From: Flavobacteriaceae bacterium
Lineage (GTDB): Bacteria > Bacteroidota > Bacteroidia > Flavobacteriales > Flavobacteriaceae
Direction: 5' to 3'
Assembly: GCA_024644745.1 (NCBI GenBank)
Contig: JAHEHF010000024.1
Span: 1 to 38,519, forward strand
Length of the DNA stretch: 38,519 nucleotides
Part shown: one piece after another, positions 1-38,178 of the stretch
How the letters are laid out: every line of letters begins with the position of its first letter
How positions within the stretch are numbered: position 1 is the stretch's first letter
The notes under the pieces: generated by a model
The model's database searches: none
Told to the model about the DNA's origin: nothing
What the model saw: the letters and a program-made list of their open reading frames with translations, nothing else
Program-made: the position numbers and the translations under genes

Positions 1-3000
1 CGGGTATAGGTCTGTTCAAATACCCTTGCAAACCTTTTAAAAATATCATGTGCCTCAGGTACTTTTTCATATGTAATAAACAGGAGGTAGCCCTTACTGA
101 ATTTGCAGAGGTGATTAATTTGATAGGTTGGCAAAGTAAGCCCGGCCTTTTGAAGGTTTTTGAATGTCTCTTTCAGTTCGGGTAAGGATATCATATAATC
201 ATAGTGTTGCACCAAGTCTTCACCTCCCAGTTCCTGAACAAAAAAGTCTTCCTCACTTTTTAAAAATTTTCCCATTTCTATAAAAGAGGCCTCTTCTGTA
301 TAATACAGGGGAAAAGGATCCTGCAACTGATCTTCACTACTCATCCAGCACTTGCTTCTGGTTTTATCATCAGATAAAACGTTATATCCGGCACTCCAGG
401 CATTAATACCCAATTCTCTGATCTGTCTGAATAACAAATTCGCTGCTTCAACAAGCTCAGCACTCGATTGCATGGCCATGGTTCGGGATCTCACTTTTTC
501 AAGCGACGCTTCTATCTGTGCTTCACGGGCCTGTTTTTCTGCTTTTTTCAAATCAAGAAAACGTTTATAATTCTGCTCAAAAACCTGGCTAAATCTTTTA
601 ATGATTGCTTTATTTTCTTCAGAAAGTGATTCCAGACCCGCTGTCTGGATCAGGCCATATTTATTAAAAGAGCCTGAAAGAATGACCTTCTTTGGTGCCT
701 TCATGGCATTCTTGACTTTTCTCGGAAGGCTCTTAAAATACCCTTCAAGGAGGATCTCATCCCAGCGGTCCTTATTTTTTCCCTTTAACTCGTACTCCCA
801 TTCCTCTAATTGAGATTTCCAGCCCTTTATATAATTTTTATAGGCAGGATGATTGTGGTAAGGTACATGATAGCTATCTGCACTATCCGGGTCTTCGGAG
901 TTCGTCATCCAGGCAGTCGCCGACTGATCATCCTTGTTAAAGATCCATAAAAGACACCTGGTCAAATCCATATCAAGATCCTGCAGCTCCTTGAATACCG
1001 TAATGATAAGTTCGCCCAATTCATCAGAGGCCATCATTGTCATTGCCCTGTTTCTTACCCGTTCAAGAGATAATTCTATCTCTGCTTCCCTTGCCTGGGA
1101 TTCGGCTTTCTCAAGATCTAAAAACCTCCTGTAAGTTTGACCAAAAACAGCAGCAAACCTTGATAATATATCAGAAGATTCTTCTGAAATCGGAGCTTCC
1201 GAAAAGGCAAAAAGAATCCCGGAAGAAAAAAAGAAACTTTTATGAAATTCTTGTTCAGGCAATGCTTTTAAATTTGCATTAAAAGGATATTCCGGTTCAT
1301 TGTTAAGTGCTTCATAATATTTTCTGACATCCTTTTTTGTATATTCATATGCATATCCCTTTTCTCCTTTTTCCCAGGCTTTTTTCAGTCCTACCAGCAT
1401 CGGATGGATCGTCATATTCAACATCCCTACCCGTAATTCAACTTTTCCGTCATGACTCGCATTCACAGATCTGGTTTCCATTCCTTCATGTCCTTCAAGA
1501 ATTCCCAGCCCGCAACGCATGGAACTGTCAAGACCCAAATTCAATACTTCTTCAAATAAAGTAATGACAATACCTTCCATATCCTTGCTGTTATGCATGG
1601 CCATCGTTTTGGAACGAACTCTCTCCAGAGCTGCTTCAATCTGTGATTCACGGGATTGTGCTTCTGCGTTCTTCAGATCCAGAAATCTTTGGAAGGTTAG
1701 TGAAAAAACCGCTGTAAACCGATGTAAAAGCTGTTTTTGATCGCCGGATAAATCATCTTTTGTGTACACAAAGATGTCTCCATGTTTGAAGTAAAAACAG
1801 TGAACCATCTGGCGATCTGGGTATTCAGCGATTTTTGGAAATTTATATCCCTTGACTTTGCCTAATTTCTCATAGTATTCACGAACTTCCTCACCGACTA
1901 ATGTGTATGAAGAATAGCTTTCATTCCTTTTCCATGCATCAAATGCGTGTTGAATTATGGGATGAAAATCGGAATCCAAATAACCTTTAACCACTTCATT
2001 GACTTTTTTGTCTTTTAGTGACATCTGCGTAGACCAAACTTCCATTAGAGAAGTTTCATTATTCAGGATGACAATTCCACACCTTTCCATTTCAAGGCCT
2101 AGCCCAGTCAACTCATTAAATACAATTGCCGTAGCATCTGAAATATCTTTTGTGGTGTGCATTGCCATAGCTTTTGCACGTACCCGTTCCAGTGACGCTT
2201 CAATCTGTGCTTCCCTTGCTTGCGCTTCGGCTTTTTGAAGGTCAAGAAAACGAGTGTATGCCCGTTCAAATTCAATCGCAAAACGATGCAGGATATCAGC
2301 TTCATCATTTTGAAGTGCTCTTCTGATATTAATTCCAAAACAGCCATATTTCATATAGGCTTCAGAATAATAAATGCCTTCAGGAAAATAGCGTGCCTTG
2401 AGCTTTTTAGCTCCTTTGAGCAATTCCTTCCAGGTATCAAAAAATTTGACAGTTTCTTCAGGTAAAATTTTCGATTCATGAACCTGATCTTCACTTTCCC
2501 ATGCTTGATAGCAAGCAGCCGTATAAGGTTCTGATTTATCAAGCGGATAAATAACTGATTTACTCAATGTAGATGTTGATCCTTTGGTTGTTTCTGTCCA
2601 GGTTGCCCAAAACATGTGCTCCAGCCTTTTCTCATCCGGAAGCCAGACATAAGAAAACTCCGAAGGTATATCTAAAGCGATCAGTTGTTCGTGAAAAATT
2701 TTAGAGAGATCTTTTATTTCATCTGAATGCTGCATCTGCATACTTTTATTCCTGACTCTCTCCAAAGCTGCTTCAATTTTAGCCTCCCGTGCTTGTTCCT
2801 CAGCTTTTTGGAGATCCAGAAATCGGGTATAGGTTTGCTGGAATACTTTTCCAAAACGCATCAGGATGGCATTTTCCTCTTCGGTATATGGGATTCCCGA
2901 AAAATTCTCGATGTACAAACCGACATTCTCCATCAAAACGGTTGATGCTGCAAGTCCATCGTAACTTAAATAAGATTCTATCGATTCTTCCGGAACATCT

Positions 3001-6000
3001 GATATCAGTTTGAAAAGATCCTCATAAAATTTGTTCTTTTCTTCAAAATTCAGATGGGTTACAAAAAAATCCAGTCCTTTTTGCTTTGCTTCATTAAAGC
3101 TGTTCCAATAGTCGCAGTCAAAATAAGGAAAACTGATCTCAGACTGAATCTCATGGCGATCGGCCAGCCAGATATGCATGTCTTCATTAGCCTTGTAATC
3201 CATGATAAAACCGGTATGCTCTATATGGATACCTAAAGTGACAAATTGTTCATATACCACCTGTATGACCTCTTTGAGTTCCTCACTTTGATGCATGGCC
3301 ATACTTCTTGATCGAACTCTTTCAAGAGCCGCTTCTATCTGGGCCTCCCGGGCCTGTGATTCCGCTTTTTGAAGATCAAGGAAGCGGGCATAGGTTTGTT
3401 CAAATACCCTGGTGAACCTGGCCATTAAGGTCTCTTCTTCACTTGTCAGCTCCGAACCTGTCACCAGGTGCAGGTAACCATGTGAAAAATTAAAGCAATA
3501 AAATACAGTGGGATCCGGAAACTGGGTCAGTACCATTTCCTCAGCTTCTTTAGAATTAAAAGTCGTAATGGCGTATTCAAGATGTTTGCGTCGTACCTCT
3601 TCGGCTACCTTTTGATGAAATACGGGTTGCTGTTGTTGCCATGCCGCATAGCGTTCATCAAAAGTGTGATCCCCGGTTAAGGGAAGGTAAAATAAGCCTA
3701 AAGAATCTCCCCCGGGGCCTGTAACCCAGGTAATTTGTCTCTTCATTTTCTCATTTACTTCAACATAACCACAGGTAACGAAGTTGGTAACCCCCAGCGC
3801 CATCAGTTCCTTGTATAATAGAACCACCACATCTTTGAGCTCTTCACCCTTTTGCATGGCCATGGTTCTGCTTCTCACTTTTTCCAAAGCATTTTCAATC
3901 TTTGCCTCCCGTGCCTGTTCCTCAGCTTTTTGCAGATCTAAGAAGCGTGTGTATGCCTGTTCAAATACTTTAGCAAATCGTTTAAAAATTTCTTCATTTT
4001 CGTAGTTTTCTGTAGTAATGACCAGTAAGTATCCATATTTAAAATAGGCTGCATGCCATTTTTGCCAATCAGGGAATTGAATTCCACGATCTAACATTTC
4101 CTGAAAAATTGGGCTAACGTCAGGAACCGTGAGCATATATTTATAGTGTTCTTTTAATTCCTTACCCCCTTTTGACAATGAAAATGCGTCCAGGTTTTCC
4201 TTCCATCCTTTGTACATTTTTTTATGTGCAGGATCTTTTGTGTTTGGAATTTTCAGAGGTGGCAGGATACCATTTTCATTGGCAAACCAAAATTCATCAA
4301 CATCTGAATCTTTTTCACAGAATCCGAAACCGGTTCCCCAAAGTTCCCCACCCAGGCTTTTTAGTTGTTCAAAAAGCACGAAAGCCACATCTCCAATTTC
4401 TTCACTTTTGTGCATGGCCATTGAGCGACTTCTCACTCTTTCCAACGCAGCTTCTATTTGTGCCTCTCTTGCTTGTGCTTCAGCTTTTTGAAGGTCAAGG
4501 AACCTCCTGTAGGTTTGATCAAAAACCTTTGCAAAACGCTTGAAAATCTCTTCTTCGGGGCATGGAACCCTGGTAATCATCACGAGATAGCCATAAGAGA
4601 AATAAGCACAGTGCAATTTTTGCCATGAGGGCCGCTCAAAGCCATCAGCCTCCATTTCATCAAAAATTTTCTTGGCAACGGGCATGGTCATCAGCCAGTC
4701 GTAATGCTCCTGCAGGGCATCCCCTTCCAACTGTTCTGTATGGTAAGATTCACCCTTTTTCCAGCCGTTGTAAATATTGTGGTGTGTTGCATCACCTACA
4801 TTGGGCAAATAAAATGCCGGAATGAATCCCTGTTCCGTGCTCAGCCACCATTCATCTTCATTTCGATCCTTTTCACATAACACGAAACCGCAGGTCCATA
4901 AATTATCGACAAGTTCATTCAATTCCTTAAATAAAACCGTGGCTACATCTCCAAGTTCCTGGCTTTGCTGCATACCCATGGTTCTTGACCTGACACGTTC
5001 GAGGGCTCCTTCTATATTTGCCTCTCTGGCCTGAGCTTCTGCTTTTTGTAGATCAAGGAAACGGGTGTAAGTTTGTTCGAATACCCTGGCAAATCGTTTA
5101 AAGACCTCATGCATTTCCGGAAAATGCTCGTAGGTTATGAAAATAAGGTTGCCATAGGCAAAATTAGCGACATGATCTACCTGAAAAGCAGGAAGTTCAA
5201 AGTCGGCATCCATCATATTGCGCAAAAAATCACCGACTTCAGGAAGTGAGAGCATATAGTCGTAATGATCTTTCTGTTCTTTTCCTTTCTTTTCATAGAT
5301 CAGCAGTTCTACACCCTTCTCTTTTGATTCCTCAAATCTCCTAAAAACAGGATGTTCATTGAGCGGTATTTTACATGTAAAAGGTATTATTTTCCCATCA
5401 GGGCTGCCCGGGTAATAAGTGAACTCCTGATCACCGACTTCCCAAATATTGAATCCACAATTCCATTGAGGAACTCCGAGGGCTTTCACCTGCTGAAACA
5501 ACACCGAAGCAACATCCAGTAATTCATCACTGTGCTGCATGGCCATGGTCCTGGCCCTGACTCTTTCCAAAGCCAGTTCTATTTCTGCCTCCCTGGCCTG
5601 GGCCTCTGCATTTTGAATATCCAGAAAGCGCCTGTAAGTCAATTTAAAAACCCCTGCAAAACGCTTCAGGATGTCAATATCATGTTCTGAAATAGGTTCA
5701 GGAGTAAGCAAATACATCATGCCATACTTGAAATAAAAGCTATTGGTATATTCAGAAGTCTGATTGGCCAATACTTTGTTTTTAATCGAATTCGGGATAC
5801 TTTCCTTATTGGTAACGGCCTCATAATACTTTTGAAGATCTTCCCCGTGAATTTCTTTAATGATATATGGGTCAGCTTTACGCCATGTAGCGACCACATC
5901 AGTAAGTATGGGATGCTGATCATAGTCCAGTGTTCCTGTAACAATAGTGGCCTTTCCATGTTGATTTAAATTTGCACTCCAGTCTTCCATGACCTGCCGT

Positions 6001-7310
6001 TCTTCATCCATAATCAGGAATCCGCAACCTCTGACATGAAAACCCAGTTCTGTTACTTGTGAAAATAACAACATCGCCGTATCTGCCAACTCATCAGCTT
6101 TGTGCATGGCCATGGCTCTTGACCTTACTCTTTCAAGGGCAGCCTCTATCTTTGCTTCTCGCGCCTGTGCTTCAGCTTGCTTTAAATCATTGAACCGGAT
6201 ATAGGTCTGCTCAAAGACTTTTGCAAAACGCTTCAGCGTATTGTTCTCTTCATCCGAATAAGGAATCGCATCCAGATTGTATATCCAAAGGGAGATGTTC
6301 TTTAAAAAAGCCTGGGAGATGGCCAGACCCGGTTTACTCAGGAGTTCATCTTTTTCTTCCTGAGGATAATCACCCATAAACTTGAACATATACTTAAAAA
6401 TGCTGTTTTTATCTTCAAAAGAAAGCGTATTTGCCAGAAAATCCAGTCCTTTTTCCTTTGCATTTTTATAGTAGTTAAATTGGGGATGATCGATATAAGG
6501 AATAAACATCAATGAAGGCAATGACCCGCTTTTATTTGCGATCCAGGTGTTCCAGTCATTATTCTGATGATAATCCAAAGTAAAGCCCGCAGCATCAATC
6601 TCAAAGTTCAGATCAATTAACTGGTCGTGAATTACTTGTATGACTTCCCTTAATTCCTCACTTTTCTGCATCCCGATAGAACGGCTCCTTACCTTTTCCA
6701 GGGCCAGTTCTATTTCTACTTCCCTGGCCTGTTTCTCTGCTTTTTGGAGATCGAGGAATCTTCTGTGGGCAAGATCAAAGGCTCCTGCAAAGCGCTCCAG
6801 GATCCTGAGATCCTCTTCTGGAGGATTTTTCACAACACCGGGCAAACTATATCCTATCTCACCGTGGGAGGTGCGAGCCATGATAAAGGTGATACCGCCA
6901 ATATGCCTTATATCATCTAGAGTAGGGGCATTTGGATCAACCTTTTGAAAATTGCCAAGGGTAATCATTTTGTCTACATAATCTACTGCATCTTCAACGT
7001 TCAGGGGCAATATCATGATGGGCTCATCACCGGCTTCCCATTCAGACATTCCTTTGTAATGACTATGAAAGTCTCTTGGTAACTCCATTACCATACCAAT
7101 CTGACTCCCATCACCCGATGTCATGGCCTTTTCATATTTATCAGGTAAATACATCATATGCCAAAAATAATCTGCCCTGTGACCCAGTTTGGTAAAGGCA
7201 TTTCTCATGGTCACAACAATGTCAAGCAGCTCAGTGGATTGCTTCATTGCAGTGGCCTGCGACCGTATACTCTCAAGAACGACTTCAATTTCCAGGGCCC
7301 TGTTTTTAAG
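1..7310 (-). repeat. Thirteen in-frame coding repeats of 558-576 bp
   Basis: The linker-encoding sequence (reverse complement of motifs such as CATGGCCAT followed by TCTTGA and CTC) recurs 13 times on the minus strand. The second linker Met codons begin at 7247, 6671, 6107, 5540, 4973, 4415, 3857, 3296, 2735, 2162, 1598, 1037 and 473. All spacings are multiples of three (558 to 576). The linker is the best-conserved part. The cores have diverged into subtypes: modules 2 and 8 resemble each other; 3, 10 and 11 form a second group; 4, 5, 6 and 13 a third. Modules 1, 7, 9 and 12 are more individual. These groupings were made by eye from the translation. Confidence 0.85.
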
Positions 7311-7805
7311 TTCCAGTTCGGCAGTCCTTCTTTTTATCGCATTTTTGAGTTCCAGGTTTTCTGCTGAGATCTTTTCAGTTCCTATTGTTTCTCCATCCTG
7401 GGCCTTCAGGTCTGGGGTTGAAAAATGCTGGTAAAAAAACCGCCATCCGTTTTTGGTGTTCCGCATCATTGAAGTAAATCTGAACCGGGCATAGTAAACC
7501 CATTCTGGATCGCTTTTGACATAGGCATCAGCGAGATCAGTAATCAGTACCATCCCATCCAGCGGTTCAATGGTGATCACGGCATTTTCACGTTTGACCT
7601 TTCCCGCAAGCTGCTCGGCTGTCTCCTCAAAAAAATCAGTGGCTGCCTTTCTATTCAAAAACTCTTCGGAACTCGTGGATCCAACAAACCTGAAATCATC
7701 TTCCAGAAAGTAATCATAAGTCTTTACGTCACCGTTCAAATAACTGTCCCACCAGGTATTGTAAACCTCCATGATTTCTGCTTCCTGCTTTTTCGTTAAT
7801 TTCAT
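1..7805 (-). CDS. Giant tandem-module sensor-like protein, N-terminal 2601 residues (3' end outside window)
   Basis: Reading the minus strand from the ATG at 7805, I met no stop before the left edge. Residues 1 to about 125 resemble the NTF2/SnoaL fold (starts MKLTKKQEAEIMEVYNTWW). A helical stretch then leads into 13 tandem modules. Each module begins with a charged helical linker of the form QAREAxIExALERVRSRxMAM and ends with a segment like FKRFAxVFEQTYxRFLDLQKAE. The second Met of the linker falls at residues 187, 379, 567, 756, 945, 1131, 1317, 1504, 1691, 1882, 2070, 2257 and 2445, so the period is 186-192 residues and always in frame. The module cores look GAF-like, with a recurring aromatic-Gly segment (such as YGYLVMIT) near their ends. 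I infer a cytoplasmic signalling protein; similar linkers occur in Bacteroidota kinases, cyclases and regulators. No signal peptide or membrane segment is visible. The output domain would lie left of the window. Frame and repeats are certain; the function is not. Confidence 0.85.
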   Translation of the reverse strand, partial: MKLTKKQEAEIMEVYNTWWDSYLNGDVKTYDYFLEDDFRFVGSTSSEEFLNRKAATDFFEETAEQLAGKVKRENAVITIEPLDGMVLITDLADAYVKSDPEWVYYARFRFTSMMRNTKNGWRFFYQHFSTPDLKAQDGETIGTEKISAENLELKNAIKRRTAELELKNRALEIEVVLESIRSQATAMKQSTELLDIVVTMRNAFTKLGHRADYFWHMMYLPDKYEKAMTSGDGSQIGMVMELPRDFHSHYKGMSEWEAGDEPIMILPLNVEDAVDYVDKMITLGNFQKVDPNAPTLDDIRHIGGITFIMARTSHGEIGYSLPGVVKNPPEEDLRILERFAGAFDLAHRRFLDLQKAEKQAREVEIELALEKVRSRSIGMQKSEELREVIQVIHDQLIDLNFEIDAAGFTLDYHQNNDWNTWIANKSGSLPSLMFIPYIDHPQFNYYKNAKEKGLDFLANTLSFEDKNSIFKYMFKFMGDYPQEEKDELLSKPGLAISQAFLKNISLWIYNLDAIPYSDEENNTLKRFAKVFEQTYIRFNDLKQAEAQAREAKIEAALERVRSRAMAMHKADELADTAMLLFSQVTELGFHVRGCGFLIMDEERQVMEDWSANLNQHGKATIVTGTLDYDQHPILTDVVATWRKADPYIIKEIHGEDLQKYYEAVTNKESIPNSIKNKVLANQTSEYTNSFYFKYGMMYLLTPEPISEHDIDILKRFAGVFKLTYRRFLDIQNAEAQAREAEIELALERVRARTMAMQHSDELLDVASVLFQQVKALGVPQWNCGFNIWEVGDQEFTYYPGSPDGKIIPFTCKIPLNEHPVFRRFEESKEKGVELLIYEKKGKEQKDHYDYMLSLPEVGDFLRNMMDADFELPAFQVDHVANFAYGNLIFITYEHFPEMHEVFKRFARVFEQTYTRFLDLQKAEAQAREANIEGALERVRSRTMGMQQSQELGDVATVLFKELNELVDNLWTCGFVLCEKDRNEDEWWLSTEQGFIPAFYLPNVGDATHHNIYNGWKKGESYHTEQLEGDALQEHYDWLMTMPVAKKIFDEMEADGFERPSWQKLHCAYFSYGYLVMITRVPCPEEEIFKRFAKVFDQTYRRFLDLQKAEAQAREAQIEAALERVRSRSMAMHKSEEIGDVAFVLFEQLKSLGGELWGTGFGFCEKDSDVDEFWFANENGILPPLKIPNTKDPAHKKMYKGWKENLDAFSLSKGGKELKEHYKYMLTVPDVSPIFQEMLDRGIQFPDWQKWHAAYFKYGYLLVITTENYENEEIFKRFAKVFEQAYTRFLDLQKAEEQAREAKIENALEKVRSRTMAMQKGEELKDVVVLLYKELMALGVTNFVTCGYVEVNEKMKRQITWVTGPGGDSLGLFYLPLTGDHTFDERYAAWQQQQPVFHQKVAEEVRRKHLEYAITTFNSKEAEEMVLTQFPDPTVFYCFNFSHGYLHLVTGSELTSEEETLMARFTRVFEQTYARFLDLQKAESQAREAQIEAALERVRSRSMAMHQSEELKEVIQVVYEQFVTLGIHIEHTGFIMDYKANEDMHIWLADRHEIQSEISFPYFDCDYWNSFNEAKQKGLDFFVTHLNFEEKNKFYEDLFKLISDVPEESIESYLSYDGLAASTVLMENVGLYIENFSGIPYTEEENAILMRFGKVFQQTYTRFLDLQKAEEQAREAKIEAALERVRNKSMQMQHSDEIKDLSKIFHEQLIALDIPSEFSYVWLPDEKRLEHMFWATWTETTKGSTSTLSKSVIYPLDKSEPYTAACYQAWESEDQVHESKILPEETVKFFDTWKELLKGAKKLKARYFPEGIYYSEAYMKYGCFGINIRRALQNDEADILHRFAIEFERAYTRFLDLQKAEAQAREAQIEASLERVRAKAMAMHTTKDISDATAIVFNELTGLGLEMERCGIVILNNETSLMEVWSTQMSLKDKKVNEVVKGYLDSDFHPIIQHAFDAWKRNESYSSYTLVGEEVREYYEKLGKVKGYKFPKIAEYPDRQMVHCFYFKHGDIFVYTKDDLSGDQKQLLHRFTAVFSLTFQRFLDLKNAEAQSRESQIEAALERVRSKTMAMHNSKDMEGIVITLFEEVLNLGLDSSMRCGLGILEGHEGMETRSVNASHDGKVELRVGMLNMTIHPMLVGLKKAWEKGEKGYAYEYTKKDVRKYYEALNNEPEYPFNANLKALPEQEFHKSFFFSSGILFAFSEAPISEESSDILSRFAAVFGQTYRRFLDLEKAESQAREAEIELSLERVRNRAMTMMASDELGELIITVFKELQDLDMDLTRCLLWIFNKDDQSATAWMTNSEDPDSADSYHVPYHNHPAYKNYIKGWKSQLEEWEYELKGKNKDRWDEILLEGYFKSLPRKVKNAMKAPKKVILSGSFNKYGLIQTAGLESLSEENKAIIKRFSQVFEQNYKRFLDLKKAEKQAREAQIEASLEKVRSRTMAMQSSAELVEAANLLFRQIRELGINAWSAGYNVLSDDKTRSKCWMSSEDQLQDPFPLYYTEEASFIEMGKFLKSEEDFFVQELGGEDLVQHYDYMISLPELKETFKNLQKAGLTLPTYQINHLCKFSKGYLLFITYEKVPEAHDIFKRFARVFEQTYT

Positions 7806-7997
7806 GATCAATAATGCTTTAAGACCCTAAATAGTAAAATTTTCAAATTTGTAATTCACCTATCAGACTACCATGATGTTCCTCTTCATCGCGATGGATT
7901 TACCAATATCGGAAATAAATTGTAAATGTTCACATGAATTGTTTTGAACCCGGGAAATTTTTAAAGTACGGGCCATCATGAGCCCTTCCAGAATGAA

Positions 7998-25210: not shown

Positions 25211-27415
<2,205 letters not shown>

Positions 27416-28898: not shown

Positions 28899-30995
28899 CT
28901 ATTCTTTCCAAACCGTTACACCCCCGGGTCTAACTGTGGTATCTCCTATCAACACATCTGATTTCCCGGTTATGTTTAATTTGTATTCCTTTGAAGAGTA
29001 ATTGACAGCCACCCAAAATCCATCCCGCCATTGTACATAAACCCCTTCGGGATAGTTTTCTGTCGTAATATTTCCCTGTGCATAAACCTTTCTTAAAACA
29101 TCTTTCTCCAATGACCCATCATCTGTATCAACTCCGATATAGGTCACTGTGCCCATTCCCATTTTATGACTCACCACCGCAGCCTTACCTTTATAAAACT
29201 GGTTCGTATAATGAGCCAAAACATTTTCAGGTGATTTCGCATGAACCAGATCTGCCCAGTTGTTCCAATAATATTCTTTACCAAATGCTTCAAGAGTCCC
29301 TTTGGCACTTGGCATCAATTGGTCAAAATTCTGTATTTCAGCATCGATAAGCGGATAAATCATTTCTCCCCATCCTGAACTGAAAATATGCCCGTTTCTG
29401 TCTTTTACACCTGTCCGTAGTGTCAAAACCAGGTGACCTCCCTGTATCACATAATTTTCCCACTTACGTATCAACGCCTTATCAACCAACTCAAATGTCG
29501 GGGCGATGACTACCTTATAGGCACTTAGATCATCATCCTCATAAACGATATCAGCAGGTGCTCCAAATGATTTTATGATTTCCAGATATTTTTGAAAGAA
29601 TTTCAAGGTATTCCATTGTTTGGTTTGGCCCTGACCTTCCATGCTCCAGAAATTATCATAATTCCACAATAAAGCCGTTTTACGATCTTTTAATTTTTCA
29701 GGCATATGCACATCCTCATCATAAGCTTCACGCAGGATTTTGAATTCACCAATGGTCTGTTTATAATCCTTTCCACCTTGCGACAGGCTAAGACCATCCA
29801 GTTTGGTGATTCCACTATGGTACTGTTCCGCCCCATAATTAATCTGACGGTAACGATAGGAACAGGCAAATGACAAATCTCCGCCAAAACAATGATACAA
29901 CCACATACGCAAGGTACCGGGCTGCAACAGAGGGTTGATGCCTCCCCAATTGACAAAACCCGGTTGTAATTCCATGATACCGGAAACCAAATGCTCAGAT
30001 TTGAAAAAACTGAGCGCAAAAGAAAGCTCTTTTGGATCGCCTAACCTAAATCCAAGGTCACCTAAATTGGCATTACCCTTGTTAGGATAAGAAGTAAAGG
30101 AATTAAAATCGAGCATCTTTGTCCTTCTTGGATCCGCTGCCGGAGTTGTTGCCGTATAATTTGTCGTGATGTACTGACTTGTTGAAATTAAAGGCCTTAA
30201 TACTGCTGCCTGCATATCCAGAAATCCAGCCTGTATATCTGCCGAATATCTTTTGAGATCAAGCAAAGAATGCGGATTGATGCCCCACCAGCCCACAAGC
30301 TTGGCATTGGGAATTTTTATTTCTTCAAAAGCACCGTAAGTTTGGCTCCAAAATGCATTGCCCCAGGCCTTGTTTAAGTTTTCTATGGTTTTGTATTTGT
30401 TTTGCAACCATACCCGAAATGCCTTTTGGGAAGACGGGCTGAAATCTTCTTTAGCCCAGGGCTCATTATCGATCTGCCAACCTATGACTGTAGGATTCTG
30501 ACCATATCGTTCACCCATTTTGGCAACAATTTTTTTTGAGAGATCCCTCCACACAGGGTTGCTAAGTGATTGCTGGTCTCTCGTGCCATGTTCCTGCCTT
30601 GTGTAATCAGCGTTCATCAAATAGATTTCAGGGTATTTGATACCCATCCAAACCGGAGTTATGGATGTAGGTGTACCCAAAACAACTTTTAATTCATGTA
30701 TTGATGCCAATTCTATCACCTCATCCAACCAAGTAAAGTCATAAACACCTTCTTCAGGTTCGAGGTTTGCCCAGGAAAATTCTGCCATATGAATAAACTC
30801 AAAACCCAAACTTGCAATATTTTTTATATCGCGTTCCCATTCTGTTTTATCCCAGTGTTCGGGATAATAATAGATCCCGAGAGACATTAGATCATCCTTA
30901 GGGAAAAATTGGGTTTTATCTTGGGCCTTAACTGTTGTTGTGAGTAAAACGAACAAAATAAATCTGCTCAGTAGTTTTTTTAATTCATCATTCAT
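28899..30995 (-). CDS. GH42 beta-galactosidase, exported
   Basis: 698 residues. A signal peptide (about residues 1-24, ending TTTVKAQ) precedes a GH42 TIM barrel opening with LGIYYYPEHWD. The acid/base is Glu178 in IGWQIDNEPW and the nucleophile Glu342 in GIMELQPGFVNW, both standard GH42 motifs. The central and C-terminal regions fit the trimerisation and beta-sandwich domains. It should cleave terminal beta-galactosides in the periplasm. It is the last gene of the GH31-GH97-GH42 operon (43 nt after the GH97 stop). Confidence 0.92.
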   Translation of the reverse strand: MNDELKKLLSRFILFVLLTTTVKAQDKTQFFPKDDLMSLGIYYYPEHWDKTEWERDIKNIASLGFEFIHMAEFSWANLEPEEGVYDFTWLDEVIELASIHELKVVLGTPTSITPVWMGIKYPEIYLMNADYTRQEHGTRDQQSLSNPVWRDLSKKIVAKMGERYGQNPTVIGWQIDNEPWAKEDFSPSSQKAFRVWLQNKYKTIENLNKAWGNAFWSQTYGAFEEIKIPNAKLVGWWGINPHSLLDLKRYSADIQAGFLDMQAAVLRPLISTSQYITTNYTATTPAADPRRTKMLDFNSFTSYPNKGNANLGDLGFRLGDPKELSFALSFFKSEHLVSGIMELQPGFVNWGGINPLLQPGTLRMWLYHCFGGDLSFACSYRYRQINYGAEQYHSGITKLDGLSLSQGGKDYKQTIGEFKILREAYDEDVHMPEKLKDRKTALLWNYDNFWSMEGQGQTKQWNTLKFFQKYLEIIKSFGAPADIVYEDDDLSAYKVVIAPTFELVDKALIRKWENYVIQGGHLVLTLRTGVKDRNGHIFSSGWGEMIYPLIDAEIQNFDQLMPSAKGTLEAFGKEYYWNNWADLVHAKSPENVLAHYTNQFYKGKAAVVSHKMGMGTVTYIGVDTDDGSLEKDVLRKVYAQGNITTENYPEGVYVQWRDGFWVAVNYSSKEYKLNITGKSDVLIGDTTVRPGGVTVWKE

Positions 30996-31038
30996 CGATA
31001 TCTGCTTTTAAACCTGAATTGATTTTCATAAACCATTT

Positions 31039-33045
31039 TTACGGCTGTGTTTTTTTAAAACGAATTGCCATGCCTCCCCCCGGAGCCAATTGAATCTGCA
31101 GGGAATCTCTCGATTTCACCTCCTTTGATGAAATAACAACTTCCGAAGCATTTTTGTTCCATGATATGCCCTTGGCATCAGCATAAATTTGAGCTTCATA
31201 AGTAGACTCCCTGTCAAGGAATGACAAGTCAATATCAAACGAACGACTTTTCTCATTGGTTAAACTTCCCAAAAACCAATCTTCACTGTATTTATCTTTG
31301 CGGACTGTGGTGATGTATTCGCCGATTTCTGCGTTTAGCACCTGGGTGTCTTCCCAGTCTACCGGAACCTCCTGTAAGAATTTAAAAGCCGGATGGCCTT
31401 CATAATTTTCAGGTAAATCGGCCAGCATTTGAATAGGAGAATAAAGGACCACATACAAGGCCAGTTGTTTGGCCGCAGTTGTATGAACGTCCCTTCCTTC
31501 AAAGCCCTGCTTGATATCAACATCCAGGATCCCGGGGGTAAAATCCATCGGCCCGGACAGAAATCTTGTAAATGGTAATATTGCTGTGTGACTTGGGGGG
31601 TTACCTTCGCTCCATGCATTGTATTCCATCCCTCTTCCTCCTTCGCGGGACATCATATTGGGATAGGTTCTTCGCTCTCCGGTATCTTTGATAGGTTCGT
31701 GGAAATTAACGGTTAATTGATATTCAGCTGCCTTTTCCAGTACTTCTCTGTAATAAGCCACTCCAAACTGTCCGTGATGCCACTCTTTCATGTTTAACCT
31801 CGAACCCACCTGACCTATTTTCACGTCGTGAATTCCTACTTCTTTGTACAGGGCCATACCGGCATCGATCTGATCCAAATAATTGATCAGGTTCGACCCT
31901 GTTTCATGGTAGCCAATGATGCTGACCCCATTTGCCCTGGCATAATCTGTAACCTTTTTAAGATCAAAACCATCGGCTTCCCTGGTAAAGCTGAATTGAT
32001 GCATGGCATTTTCATACCAAGCCGGAGTCCAGCCCTTGTTCCATCCTTCAATAAGCAAATGATCAATACCAAATTTTTTGCAATAATCAATATATGCAAA
32101 GGCATTTTCAGTCGTGGCACCCTGGGTGGGACTTTCCCAGAATGTATATTTACCAATATGCATTCCCCACCAGATCCCTAAATATTTGCTGGGTTTGATC
32201 CAGCTCGTATCTGTTAATTTATTCGGATCATTGAGGTTCAAAATCATGTAGGAGGTAATTAAATCACCGGGGGTTTCCGCAATTTGCAAGGTTCTCCAAG
32301 GGGTTGTGAAGCTTCCGTCTGTTTTTACCCTGTCTCCGTCTGCCCATGGTACGAGATCAGCTTTGAGTGTCGTACCCCTGGTCCTTTTCAGGGTCATACT
32401 GGCAAAATCCTTTAATTTTGCCTCATGAAAACTCAGGAAAAATCCGCTATTACTTTTTATGGTCAGTGGTGTATGAACAATTTCCAAATCACTGACAGCT
32501 GATTTGCTTGTTAAATATTCATACCTGTTATCCTGATAGGCAGGGATCCACCAGGCATCCCCATCGTCTGTTAAATTAAAGGTCGTCAGTTCATCCATAA
32601 TAACAAGACTATCCTTCCCCTGCCGCTGATAGATATACCGTAAAGCGATACCATCATCAAAGGCCCTAAACTGAATTTCCAGTTCCCGTTCGTATCCGGA
32701 CCTTTCTTTAAGCATGACTGATAATTCATTGTAATGATTCCGTATGATTTTCTTCTCTCCCCAAATTTGCTCCCAGGATTCATCAAACCCGGAGGTGTTA
32801 CTTGCATTTACTTCGAAATTGCCACAGAGTGAATCCCGGTCTTTGAATACGAAGCCTAAATCAGAATCATTCAAAATCATTGTATTACCATGGGCAACCC
32901 TGTAAACAGGAATACCCTCCTTGATCTCAAAAGTTATTTTGTTTTTGGCGTTGGGGGATGAAATTTGATACGAATTTGTTTTTTCCTGATTTGTGCAGGA
33001 AATAAAAAAGGCCAGTGATAAGGCACAAATAAAAAATTGATTCAT
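31039..33045 (-). CDS. GH97 alpha-glucosidase-like lipoprotein
   Basis: 668 residues. A lipoprotein signal (SLAFFISC, Cys17) leads into the GH97 N-terminal beta-sandwich and a catalytic barrel with LGIWWGMHIGKYTFWE and LLIEGWNKGWTP. Acidic candidates are Glu381 (GYHETGS), Glu450 (VNFHEPI) and Glu468 (REGGRGMEYN). The segment DVKIGQVG has Gly where retaining GH97 alpha-galactosidases carry the nucleophile Asp. By recalled comparison with SusB this predicts the inverting alpha-glucosidase subtype. It is in the middle of the operon, between GH31 and GH42. Confidence 0.88.
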   Translation of the reverse strand: MNQFFICALSLAFFISCTNQEKTNSYQISSPNAKNKITFEIKEGIPVYRVAHGNTMILNDSDLGFVFKDRDSLCGNFEVNASNTSGFDESWEQIWGEKKIIRNHYNELSVMLKERSGYERELEIQFRAFDDGIALRYIYQRQGKDSLVIMDELTTFNLTDDGDAWWIPAYQDNRYEYLTSKSAVSDLEIVHTPLTIKSNSGFFLSFHEAKLKDFASMTLKRTRGTTLKADLVPWADGDRVKTDGSFTTPWRTLQIAETPGDLITSYMILNLNDPNKLTDTSWIKPSKYLGIWWGMHIGKYTFWESPTQGATTENAFAYIDYCKKFGIDHLLIEGWNKGWTPAWYENAMHQFSFTREADGFDLKKVTDYARANGVSIIGYHETGSNLINYLDQIDAGMALYKEVGIHDVKIGQVGSRLNMKEWHHGQFGVAYYREVLEKAAEYQLTVNFHEPIKDTGERRTYPNMMSREGGRGMEYNAWSEGNPPSHTAILPFTRFLSGPMDFTPGILDVDIKQGFEGRDVHTTAAKQLALYVVLYSPIQMLADLPENYEGHPAFKFLQEVPVDWEDTQVLNAEIGEYITTVRKDKYSEDWFLGSLTNEKSRSFDIDLSFLDRESTYEAQIYADAKGISWNKNASEVVISSKEVKSRDSLQIQLAPGGGMAIRFKKTQP

Positions 33046-33087
33046 TCTGCTAATTTATTTGAAGTGAAGGATTCATGGATTCTTCCT

Positions 33088-35475
33088 TTATTGATTGATT
33101 TTAAAATTTATTTTTTGGAGCTTTGGATTCTTTTTCAAAACGAATTTGAATCCGGATTTTTCTGCAATCAATTCATACAAGGCATCATCATTGGGTAAAT
33201 GAATCTTTCCTTTGGCAACACCTGCATCTGCAGCATAAATCTTCAATTCTATCTCGCTCCAGTCCATATCTTTGGTTGATTGCGCCAGCTTCATGTGCGG
33301 AATTACGGCCCCGTCCCTTACCAAAACAATGATCGGAATGTCTCCTGACTCAATCTTGTTCCATCCCTTTTCATACACCTTATTGCTTTGATAATCGATC
33401 CATTTTCCTTCGGGCAAATACACGTTTCTTGCAGTTATATTTTCAAACAAAGGGGCCACCAGCATATCCGAACCAAAAAGGTATTGGTCGTCTACCAACC
33501 AGGCACCCGGATCGTCAGGGTATTCAACGAACAAGGCTCTTAACATGGGCAATCCGTTTTCCGAGGCATATTTAGCCTGGGCGTAGATATAGGGCATTAA
33601 CTTATAACGCATATTATCGGCCTTTCTAAATTCGCTTAAGAACTGATCACCGTACTCCCAAGGCTCTGTTGGAGGCTCCCCATGGCTTCGCACATGAGAG
33701 GTCAGCATACCGAAGGGAGTCCACCTTCTGTATACATCCTCAGGTGATTTGGTGGTAAATCCGCCAACATCATGGCTCCAAAATGAAAAACCGGATAAAC
33801 CCAATGACAAGCCTCCTCTCAAAGTTGCTGACATGGCCGTATTGGTTGTTGCCGCGTCACCTCCCCAATGCAAGGGGTAACGCTGGCTTCCGGCCCAGGA
33901 ACTGCGTGCCCAGATGATGTTGTTCCCGGTTATTTCTTTAGTAATTTCCGCAACGGCTTTATTATAACGCAAGGGGTACAAATTGTGTTCATAAAAACCT
34001 GTTCTGCCATTGCTGTAAATTCCTGTTCGCGGACCTGCCTCGCCAAAATCAACTTTGATCACACCAACACCCATTTTCAAAAGCGATGCTATCTTATCCT
34101 GGTACCATGCAACAGTTTTAGGATTCGTGAAATCGAGCGTTGCATCTTCATAAGGAATATTTCCCTTCTTATCTTTTACAGCCAGTTCCTTTTCCATAAT
34201 TTCATCAAAAAGTGTGTTTTTTGGAGTGAAATAGGGAAGTTGCCATAAACAAATGTTAAATCCTTCCTTTTTCATATCGGCGATCATACTGACAGGATCA
34301 TCAAATCTGTTTTTTGAAAATTCGTAATTGTTTCGCCAATCCACTTCAAACCAACCCGTATCAAAGTGGATCACATCACTGGGTATTTTATGTTTTCTCA
34401 AATTTTTAGCTATTTCCCGTCCTTCCTCTTCAGAAAAATAGGTGATCCGGCTCATCCAAAAACCAAAAGACCAAAGCGGAGGCATTTGCGTTTTTCCTGT
34501 GAGGTCAGTATATTCATCCAAAATGTCTTTTGGCTGCCCGATAAAGACGAATAAATCAGCCTCATCATCACCAATCATCATAGAATTGGCTCCATTAAAA
34601 TATTTCCCGAAATCAACTGTTATCGGCGTGGAATGATGCATAAAAACACCATAACCCCTGCTACTCATATAAAACGGTATGGGTTTATACATGGTTTCAT
34701 TCTGAACCCCGTTTGCATCATCGGTCCATAAAATGACCTTTTGCCCACGTTTGTTAAATTGGGTAAACGATTCACCACAACCAAAAATTTTCTCTTCCGG
34801 TGACATTGAAAATACCGCATCCATACTTCTGCTATAATCATCTGCCCGGCGTACAAAAGAGAAAGGGGTTACAGGCGTATAAGTGCTATTGACATCTTCT
34901 GAATGAAGGGTTCCGGTCAATAATTTTCCTTTTGCATCATAAATATAGACGTGCCATGGGTTTACAGTTATCAATACTGACCCTTCGCTACTCGTGTATT
35001 TATGCCCTTCTGTCACCCTGGTGTATTTCCACAGATCTCTTGCATTTTTGGCCACCCCGTTGATCAGCATCAATGAGGAATCTTCCTTTTTGAACTGTGG
35101 CCCTGATGATGTCTTGATACGAATGGTTCTTTCTGAAACAAATTCAATCGAAAATGGTAATTCAGGCGAAATTTCATATTCTGTCGTTGGAAATTCATTG
35201 GCGTCCGCCGGCACAAGCTTGCTCAGCATATTGTCAAATGCCTGTCTTGTTGCGAAATTATGTCGTACATATTTTATGCTTCCCTTTCCCGATCCGGGAT
35301 CAAAAGAGGCCAATTCATCAGCCAGATAATAGGTATTTCTAAAATCCTCAAAGTCTTTACTGATGTCAGGCGGTTCATTTAAGACGTTGGTGTTTTGAAT
35401 TTGTGCCTTGGCGACAGTTAAAAGAAAAAGGAATCCTGTAAAAATGTAAAGATTAAGGTATCTGTTAGTGAACAT
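33088..35475 (-). CDS. GH31 alpha-glycosidase, exported
   Basis: 795 residues from the ATG at 35475, which directly precedes a signal peptide (MFTNRYLNLYIFTGFLFLLT, then VAKAQ); upstream in-frame Met codons would spoil it. The catalytic barrel has the nucleophile Asp476 in IKVDFGEAGP and the acid/base Asp540 in HWGGDA, plus FWSHDVGGF. The KVDFGEAGP sequence resembles the alpha-xylosidase branch (YicI-like KTDFGE), so alpha-xylosidase is as likely as alpha-glucosidase. It is the first gene of a three-gene hydrolase operon; the GH97 gene follows after 42 nt. Confidence 0.9.
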   Translation of the reverse strand: MFTNRYLNLYIFTGFLFLLTVAKAQIQNTNVLNEPPDISKDFEDFRNTYYLADELASFDPGSGKGSIKYVRHNFATRQAFDNMLSKLVPADANEFPTTEYEISPELPFSIEFVSERTIRIKTSSGPQFKKEDSSLMLINGVAKNARDLWKYTRVTEGHKYTSSEGSVLITVNPWHVYIYDAKGKLLTGTLHSEDVNSTYTPVTPFSFVRRADDYSRSMDAVFSMSPEEKIFGCGESFTQFNKRGQKVILWTDDANGVQNETMYKPIPFYMSSRGYGVFMHHSTPITVDFGKYFNGANSMMIGDDEADLFVFIGQPKDILDEYTDLTGKTQMPPLWSFGFWMSRITYFSEEEGREIAKNLRKHKIPSDVIHFDTGWFEVDWRNNYEFSKNRFDDPVSMIADMKKEGFNICLWQLPYFTPKNTLFDEIMEKELAVKDKKGNIPYEDATLDFTNPKTVAWYQDKIASLLKMGVGVIKVDFGEAGPRTGIYSNGRTGFYEHNLYPLRYNKAVAEITKEITGNNIIWARSSWAGSQRYPLHWGGDAATTNTAMSATLRGGLSLGLSGFSFWSHDVGGFTTKSPEDVYRRWTPFGMLTSHVRSHGEPPTEPWEYGDQFLSEFRKADNMRYKLMPYIYAQAKYASENGLPMLRALFVEYPDDPGAWLVDDQYLFGSDMLVAPLFENITARNVYLPEGKWIDYQSNKVYEKGWNKIESGDIPIIVLVRDGAVIPHMKLAQSTKDMDWSEIELKIYAADAGVAKGKIHLPNDDALYELIAEKSGFKFVLKKNPKLQKINFKINQ

Positions 35476-35536
35476 GATGAATGATTTATATTCCTGATAA
35501 AAAAATGACCTCATTATAAAACCGATATAACCCATC

Positions 35537-35574
35537 AATCTGACAAAAATAAAACTGGTTATCCCCGTCAGATT
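35537..35574 (-). promoter_or_regulatory. Candidate GH31 operon promoter with inverted repeat
   Basis: Minus-strand TATTTTTG (35551-35544) matches TAnnTTTG. Inverted arms AATCTGAC (35537-35544) and GTCAGATT (35567-35574), 22 nt apart, bracket it. No TTG sits at the expected distance, so a regulator-dependent promoter is possible. A start near 35537 gives a leader of about 60 nt. Confidence 0.35.

Positions 35575-35889: not shown

Positions 35890-38178
<2,289 letters not shown>

Follow-up and report, generated by a model that had tools for sequence, protein, structure and literature searches.

A giant flavobacterial histidine kinase with 15 predicted GAF-fold modules, and single-module exchange among related Bacteroidota kinases

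Sensor kinases usually bear one to a few sensor domains. Among the described proteins closest to the kinase reported here, the cyanobacterial adenylyl cyclase CyaB2 (1ykd) and phosphodiesterases 2, 5, and 6 (1mc0, 3mf0, and 9cxh) likewise have tandem GAF domains joined by long helices, but they carry two GAFs, have cyclic-nucleotide ligands, and hold a cyclase or phosphodiesterase output within their own chain. Phytochromes and multi-GAF cyanobacteriochromes place several GAF sensors along a helical spine that leads to a histidine kinase, as here, although with far fewer modules; three-GAF All2699 (PMC6696110) is an example. Soluble kinases of the DosT type share with the giant kinase a cytoplasmic GAF fold followed by HisKA and HATPase_c, and DosT is introduced in PMC8534201 as a soluble sensor kinase with two tandem GAF domains. 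The DosT-type kinases have one to a few GAFs, however, where the giant kinase has 15. In two-component operons with a class III cyclase response regulator, a protein with a receiver and a Guanylate_cyc domain adjoins the kinase, as is also the case here; unlike those operons, the giant-kinase loci contain several kinases of similar core per one receiver set.

The window, by which we mean the whole stretch of 38,519 nucleotides that was analyzed, comes from a Flavobacteriaceae bacterium and is contig C1 of a 138-contig genome. Its left edge truncates a giant minus-strand gene. The original prediction, made from the letters of the window, described a single frame of over 2600 codons, and the open reading frame does run from a TTG at 7811 to base 3 with no stop (2603 codons), leaving through the contig edge; an in-frame ATG lies at 7803-7805. 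The prediction proposed following this frame leftwards to its stop and searching the C terminus for an output domain, and both steps were productive. A search of the same genome found an identical copy of the last 39 residues of the window protein at the end of contig C97, the C1 edge and the C97 end overlap by exactly 121 identical bp, and C97 carries the frame on for 649 further codons with two further modules and a kinase, so that the giant gene has 3252 codons when counted from the TTG and 3250 when counted from the ATG. Its order is SnoaL_3, 15 modules, HisKA, and HATPase_c (Table 1). The C-terminal part on C97 scored 80.9 bits for HATPase_c (cutoff, 26.4) and 29.7 bits for HisKA (cutoff, 26.9), identifying the output as a HisKA/HATPase_c histidine kinase. 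No receiver domain was found in the chain, the C97 part giving only HATPase_c and HisKA and the window part only SnoaL_3/DUF4440, which rules out a hybrid histidine kinase.

Table 1. Features of the giant histidine kinase gene in the window and its continuation on contig C97
Feature	Position	Strand	Basis or remark
Giant histidine kinase gene, window part	3..7805	-	Open frame without stop; 3' part on C97
121-bp overlap with the C97 (L006) end	1..121	.	Exact match; C97 continues the gene
SnoaL_3 (NTF2-like) N-terminal domain, residues 13-133	7413..7775	-	PF13474, E 6.8e-16, 59.2 bits, cutoff 22
Segment from SnoaL_3 to module 1, residues 134-169, coiled-coil-like by eye	7305..7412	-	Sequence
Module 1; in relatives its subtype sits mostly at first positions	6729..7304	-	Profile, alignment, clustering
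Module 2	6165..6728	-	Profile, alignment
Module 3; at most 42% identical to any module in the named loci (best 80 of at least 546 stretches)	5598..6164	-	
Module 4; 82% identical to L007 position 8 and L008 position 3; AlphaFold2 model	5031..5597	-	
Module 5	4473..5030	-	
Module 6; 86% identical to L057 module 8, 81% to module 6 of the Algoriphagus kinase (L052)	3915..4472	-	
Module 7	3354..3914	-	
Module 8	2793..3353	-	
Module 9	2220..2792	-	
Module 10	1656..2219	-	
Module 11	1095..1655	-	
Module 12	531..1094	-	
Module 13, truncated by the contig edge	3..530	-	
Modules 14 and 15 and HisKA-HATPase_c	L006:4611-6677 on C97		

Elsewhere in the window lie two PF00141 peroxidase genes, each with two PF00141 stretches and catalase-peroxidase-like, at 25214-27415 (+) and 35914-38178 (+). 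They are about 8.5 kb apart, and GH42, GH97, and GH31 glycosidase genes occupy 28899-35538 on the minus strand between them.

The module count and the linker described in the original prediction hold up in the window, where 13 repeats of a 186- to 192-residue module are present as 12 complete modules and a 13th without its last residues; the figure of at least 13 tandem modules is right for the window and becomes 15 for the whole gene. The modules begin at residues 170, 362, 550, 739, 928, 1114, 1300, 1487, 1674, 1865, 2053, 2240, 2428, 2615, and ~2798, a start-to-start spacing of 183 to 192 residues over the whole gene (186 to 192 inside the window). The linker, which had been called strongly conserved, is the most conserved part of the module. 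R14, M20, and F173 are invariant in all 15 modules, and E3, I6, E7, L10, E11, L40, G149, R168, F169, R179, D182, and E187 are nearly so. A profile built from the 13 window modules matched the array of a same-genus genome at an E value of 2.4e-72, and dN/dS was 0.03 to 0.11 in 15 of 17 same-genus module pairs (the remaining two were not computable, and dS was saturated in many); these results together exclude a chance array. Recent tandem duplication was rejected as the source of the array because the best identity of each module to another within the protein is 26 to 53%, yet some relatives do have adjacent copies of the same subtype. The idea that linker conservation reflects a mere DNA repeat was rejected as well, codon identity at identical residues of the window linker being 0.42 against 0.39 expected from codon use. 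The same comparison in seven other proteins gave a larger excess in some of them, up to 0.50 against 0.36, so that some DNA homogenization is possible there.

The giant protein had been called cytoplasmic, sensor-like, and GAF-like, and structure prediction on single modules had been named as a way of checking this. The AlphaFold2 model of module 4 is a GAF fold at high confidence (pLDDT, 94.7), and no membrane-type stretch was found, the 19-residue hydrophobicity maximum being 1.51 at a threshold of 1.6, so the protein is probably soluble. In both respects the models and the hydrophobicity profile agree with the description. The best Foldseek matches of the module model were GAF structures, although remote, with only one match at E <= 0.001. 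A three-module model (pLDDT, 94.3; pTM, 0.74) matched tandem GAFs and phytochromes at whole-chain TM-scores of only 0.25 to 0.36, and these matches are therefore uninformative on the inter-module angle. In structure, the one-module and the three-module model both came closest to the tandem GAFs 1ykd, 1mc0, 3mf0, and 9cxh, and phytochromes were also among the matches. The NKFDE motif marks cyclic-nucleotide-binding GAFs; such a motif is not established in the array modules, the NKFDE pattern that was run being loose and non-specific and listing no more than ten modules. A further difference from phytochromes is that the domain search of both parts of the giant kinase found no PHY or PAS domain. 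Across the alignment of all 15 modules, no Cys, the residue to which a bilin would be linked, is in an invariant or nearly invariant column.

Against Pfam, the window protein matched no GAF family at E <= 1, with only SnoaL_3/DUF4440 above the cutoff, and its NCBIfam search returned nothing informative. When the whole genome was searched with GAF_2, the match was on another contig and not in the giant gene, and the module profile run against PDB sequences had a best E value of 0.22 with no GAF among its matches. For 75 subtype representatives (see below), no GAF family was found among the 25 of 46 Pfam families listed, a single representative matched DUF3369 (E 0.0066), and none of the 21 NCBIfam families matched was a GAF. 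The modules thus differ from the GAF superfamily at large in that no listed Pfam or NCBIfam GAF model matches them and in that their subtypes are exchanged singly. A literature search, with most subscription journals and bioRxiv outside its range, found no published description of such arrays. On the predicted fold and these searches, the modules appear to form a new GAF-like sequence family without prior description.

A linker-pattern search of a genome collection gave at least 546 confirmed stretches, and the best 80 of these, chosen by their likeness to window module 4, make up the 78 named loci that are compared below as the best-80 set. All lineages in this set are named Bacteroidota except that of L063, a 4,026-base contig of a 'Bacillota' metagenome-assembled genome that carries modules and is possibly a misbinned Bacteroidota contig. 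In the best-80 set, 64 relatives are complete and have two or more modules, with a range of 2 to 20. The longest, with 20 modules each, are L024 from Aquiflexum sp. (4232 codons) and L039 (4068 codons); L064 has 21 profile matches and is truncated by a contig end, as is the gene of genome G014. In a separate sample of 392 Bacteroidota genomes, with at most 8 candidates scored per genome for most of them, the module was present in 37, the genome of the window included, and two of these 37 had a single weak match only (E 1e-4 and 2.6e-6). Within the window's genus, 7 of 22 genomes have the module, again counting its own, and 4 of 6 do so among the better assemblies. As judged from sequence, giant module arrays are a recurrent Bacteroidota architecture and not unique to this genome.

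Downstream of the giant gene on C97, on the same strand, lie genes for a SnoaL_3-HisKA-HATPase_c protein of 434 amino acids, a Response_reg protein of 124 amino acids, and a protein of 348 amino acids with Response_reg and Guanylate_cyc. The kinase cores of the giant protein and of its 434-amino-acid neighbor are 71% identical (203/285). In the best-80 set, a kinase core is present in 60 of the 64 complete relatives and absent in 4, and a SnoaL-like N terminus was found by phmmer in 42. A second kinase occurs within 6 kb on the same strand in 61 of these 64, a receiver is nearby in 28, and a receiver-cyclase is present in 25, with none seen in the examined stretch for the other 39. Among six same-genus stretches, a receiver-cyclase lies upstream of the giant gene in G004 and a 301-amino-acid neighbor matches the receiver-cyclase query in G017; none was seen in the remaining four. 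These counts indicate that the kinase neighbor is general and that the receiver-cyclase is common, not universal. Several loci have further arrangements of their own. At L052:3011-16513, two multi-module kinases stand in the same orientation with few bases between them, and L010, L037, L060, and L076 likewise have two multi-module kinases per locus in the same orientation. L119 (G017, same genus) has an array of about 5 modules in a 1006-codon open frame without a kinase core.

We then compared modules between proteins. Eleven of the 15 modules have a counterpart at 66% identity or more, up to 86%, in the best-80 set, and modules 2, 3, 10, and 12 find only 42 to 55% there; for module 12, however, G011 supplies a counterpart at 85%. 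The 764 modules of the best-80 set fell into 133 clusters at 50% average identity, with modules below 120 residues excluded from the identity comparison and those below 150 from the clustering. The larger clusters are mostly spread over many positions, and first and last modules fall mostly in position-bound clusters. Counterparts of module 6, for example, are module 8 of L057, module 6 of L013, module 4 of L049, and module 6 of L052. The best match lies in another locus for 758 of the 764 modules in the best-80 set, close relatives being counted. With order labels (Flavobacteriia, Cytophagales, and Chitinophagales/Sphingobacteriales) assigned from record names and the 53 modules without a label left out, another order group supplies a better match than the module's own protein for 680 of 711 modules, at 60% identity or more for 418 and at 70% or more for 214.

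In 505 of 1150 cross-order protein pairs of the best-80 set, the best common module exceeds the kinase cores in identity, and in 645 it does not. When only isolates are considered, 14 of 295 cross-order pairs have a common module at or above the 80% threshold (81.9 to 89.9%) and kinase cores at 48 to 66%. Module 6 of Maribacter arcticus and module 5 of Belliella aquatica are 86.6% identical, and their kinases 48%; for Christiangramia module 5 and Cognataquiflexum aquatile module 10, the values are 87.8% and 50%. Module 6 of the giant kinase is 81% identical to module 6 of the Algoriphagus algorifonticola kinase, and the kinase cores are 47% identical. A faster-evolving kinase core was rejected as the explanation, since a same-genus pair has a core at 77% and matched modules at 66 to 84%. 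In 43 high pairs (45 modules, 30 loci), selected as interior, of equal length, and at least 75% identical, so that only the drop outside the module is informative, identity is about 0.7 to 0.9 within the module and, past the linker on either side, drops to the level seen between unrelated pairs. This drop at both linkers indicates that the unit shared is one module with its borders in the linker. At the level of these comparisons, single-module exchange between kinases is demonstrated.

The exchange has limits. Two proteins of the best-80 set have a mean of 1.3 close modules in common, and in the 120 pairs with at least 4 common modules, 1120 of 1295 order comparisons were concordant and 175 discordant. 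The mostly kept order and the few common modules speak against wild shuffling. A one-module difference is seen between two same-genus genes, those of G011 (8 modules) and G013 (7 modules), which are 94 to 100% identical per module, G013 being without module 2 of G011. Their DNA alignment has a single in-frame gap of 561 nucleotides, equal to one module. The right-hand block flanking it is 98.3% identical and the left-hand block 84.0%, with 56 bp of linker overlap; the two linkers of G011 agree at 38 of these 56 bases, and G013 tracks the first G011 linker and then the second, switching within or just after the 56-bp stretch. The shift from 84% to 98% between L115 and L116 (G011 and G013) at the linker of the absent module raises the possibility that a border of recombination lies at the indel.

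What is locked in these proteins is the length of the linker. Counted from the Phe motif of the end helix, the next LERVR motif comes 25 residues on in all 14 linkers of the giant kinase and in all 458 linkers counted in the best-80 set, the count covering linkers that fit the motif at both ends in a search that allowed 5 to 60 residues. The module period itself varies (5th to 95th percentile, 182 to 194 residues). In the three-module model, the linkers form unbroken helices of 45 to 48 residues. Substitutions would then be tolerated in the attached domains and insertions not in the helix, as a register-dependent coiled coil would need, and 15 extended units with such helices would give a rod on the 100-nm scale. 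Conservation of the modules has a second component. Over 25 subtypes with at least 9 members each, the GAF core has a conservation of 0.58 inside a subtype and 0.14 across subtypes, the corresponding values for linker helix 1 being 0.79 and 0.60. The core strands have about 75% identity within a subtype and are almost entirely different between subtypes. The positions that best distinguish subtypes are 46, 50, 59, 61, 139, 141, 145, 150, 152, and 154 in core strands and 108 to 111 in a helix, and the contrast is stronger on one strand face (0 of 20,000 permutations), the faces having been picked after the data were seen. Subtype conservation together with purifying selection is the pattern that would be expected of distinct, selected ligand pockets. 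The original prediction had offered three uses for such a chain, namely integrating many ligands, acting as a scaffold, or forming a long signaling rod. Subtype-specific conservation would favor the many-ligand use, and the invariant linker would fit the signaling rod as its mechanical part.

Our main reading, to which we give a probability of about 0.6, is that the giant protein is a soluble, cytoplasmic, multi-input histidine kinase whose sensor cassettes can be exchanged along a helical spine locked in register. It could instead act chiefly as a spacer or scaffold, a rod by which kinases are held or clustered, with most modules free of ligand and only length or number of importance. A linker conserved above all else, an array of anywhere from 2 to 20 modules in the complete relatives, and four window modules without a close counterpart (both in the best-80 set) would suit such a rod, but it would need neither the high core-strand identity within subtypes that otherwise differ almost wholly, nor dN/dS values of 0.03 to 0.11, nor the retention of one subtype at 80 to 90% across orders, and we regard it as unlikely. 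Somewhat less likely again is that the modules are units of protein-protein contact, serving docking or assembly with neighboring kinases and not the sensing of small molecules; the nearby kinase in 61 of 64 complete relatives (best-80 set) and the 71% core identity of the neighbor here are in keeping with this, but the subtype-specific positions are mostly alternate residues of core strands, as for an inward face (sequence-based, with faces chosen post hoc). Finally, a giant length produced by a wrong contig join or a repeat chimera is very improbable: the break in the gene falls at a contig edge, where the exact 121-bp overlap is typical of an assembler branch end, but 2603 codons lie within a single contig, modules 13 to 15 are collinear across the join with modules 14 to 16 of G004 (76, 79, and 80% identity) and 6 to 8 of G011 (75, 78, and 82%) from the same genus, and the 3433-codon, 16-module gene of G004 is internal to one contig of 1,116,545 bases, so an assembly artifact was dismissed as the source of the array.

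For the multi-input kinase, we propose the following mechanism. The 15 modules, GAF folds of different subtypes by prediction, follow one another directly, and in the three-module model the final helix of a module passes unbroken into the first helix of the one after it. In a presumed dimer, these helices would form a long parallel spine ending at the HisKA dimerization helix. The GAF pocket of each subtype probably takes a distinct small ligand, as conservation within and divergence between subtypes would suggest. GAF-linked kinases, phytochromes, and phosphodiesterases are precedents for ligand binding shifting a helical spine, and by analogy with them such a shift would alter the kinase/phosphatase balance here. 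To judge from gene order, phosphate would pass to the neighboring receiver protein and the receiver-cyclase, and the output would be a cyclic nucleotide. Sequence comparison shows that, as the array evolves, whole modules are gained, lost, and exchanged and the joins fall within the invariant linker helix, which would give lineage-specific sets of inputs. A broader version, which we hold tentatively and at somewhat less than even odds, is that Bacteroidota have a phylum-wide pool of GAF cassettes, single members of which cross orders by in-register recombination in the linker, fit any position, and drive a common kinase. Each cassette would read a different metabolite, and the array would be an evolvable, lineage-specific list of inputs to one switch, perhaps with a cyclic-nucleotide output.

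Relative to the known GAF-containing soluble histidine kinases, what is new is the extreme number of modules, a GAF-like sequence family without earlier description, and evolution in the manner of cassettes. With 15 predicted sensor modules, a linker of constant length, and subtypes that turn up again in other kinases, the array would be a modular integrator of signals provided by nature. It allows two questions to be put to the test: how inputs to many domains are summed over a single helical spine, and whether sensor domains are freely interchangeable as long as the register is maintained. The subtypes, sampled here by 75 representatives that no listed GAF model matches, also offer a large number of candidate ligand-binding domains that have not been described before.
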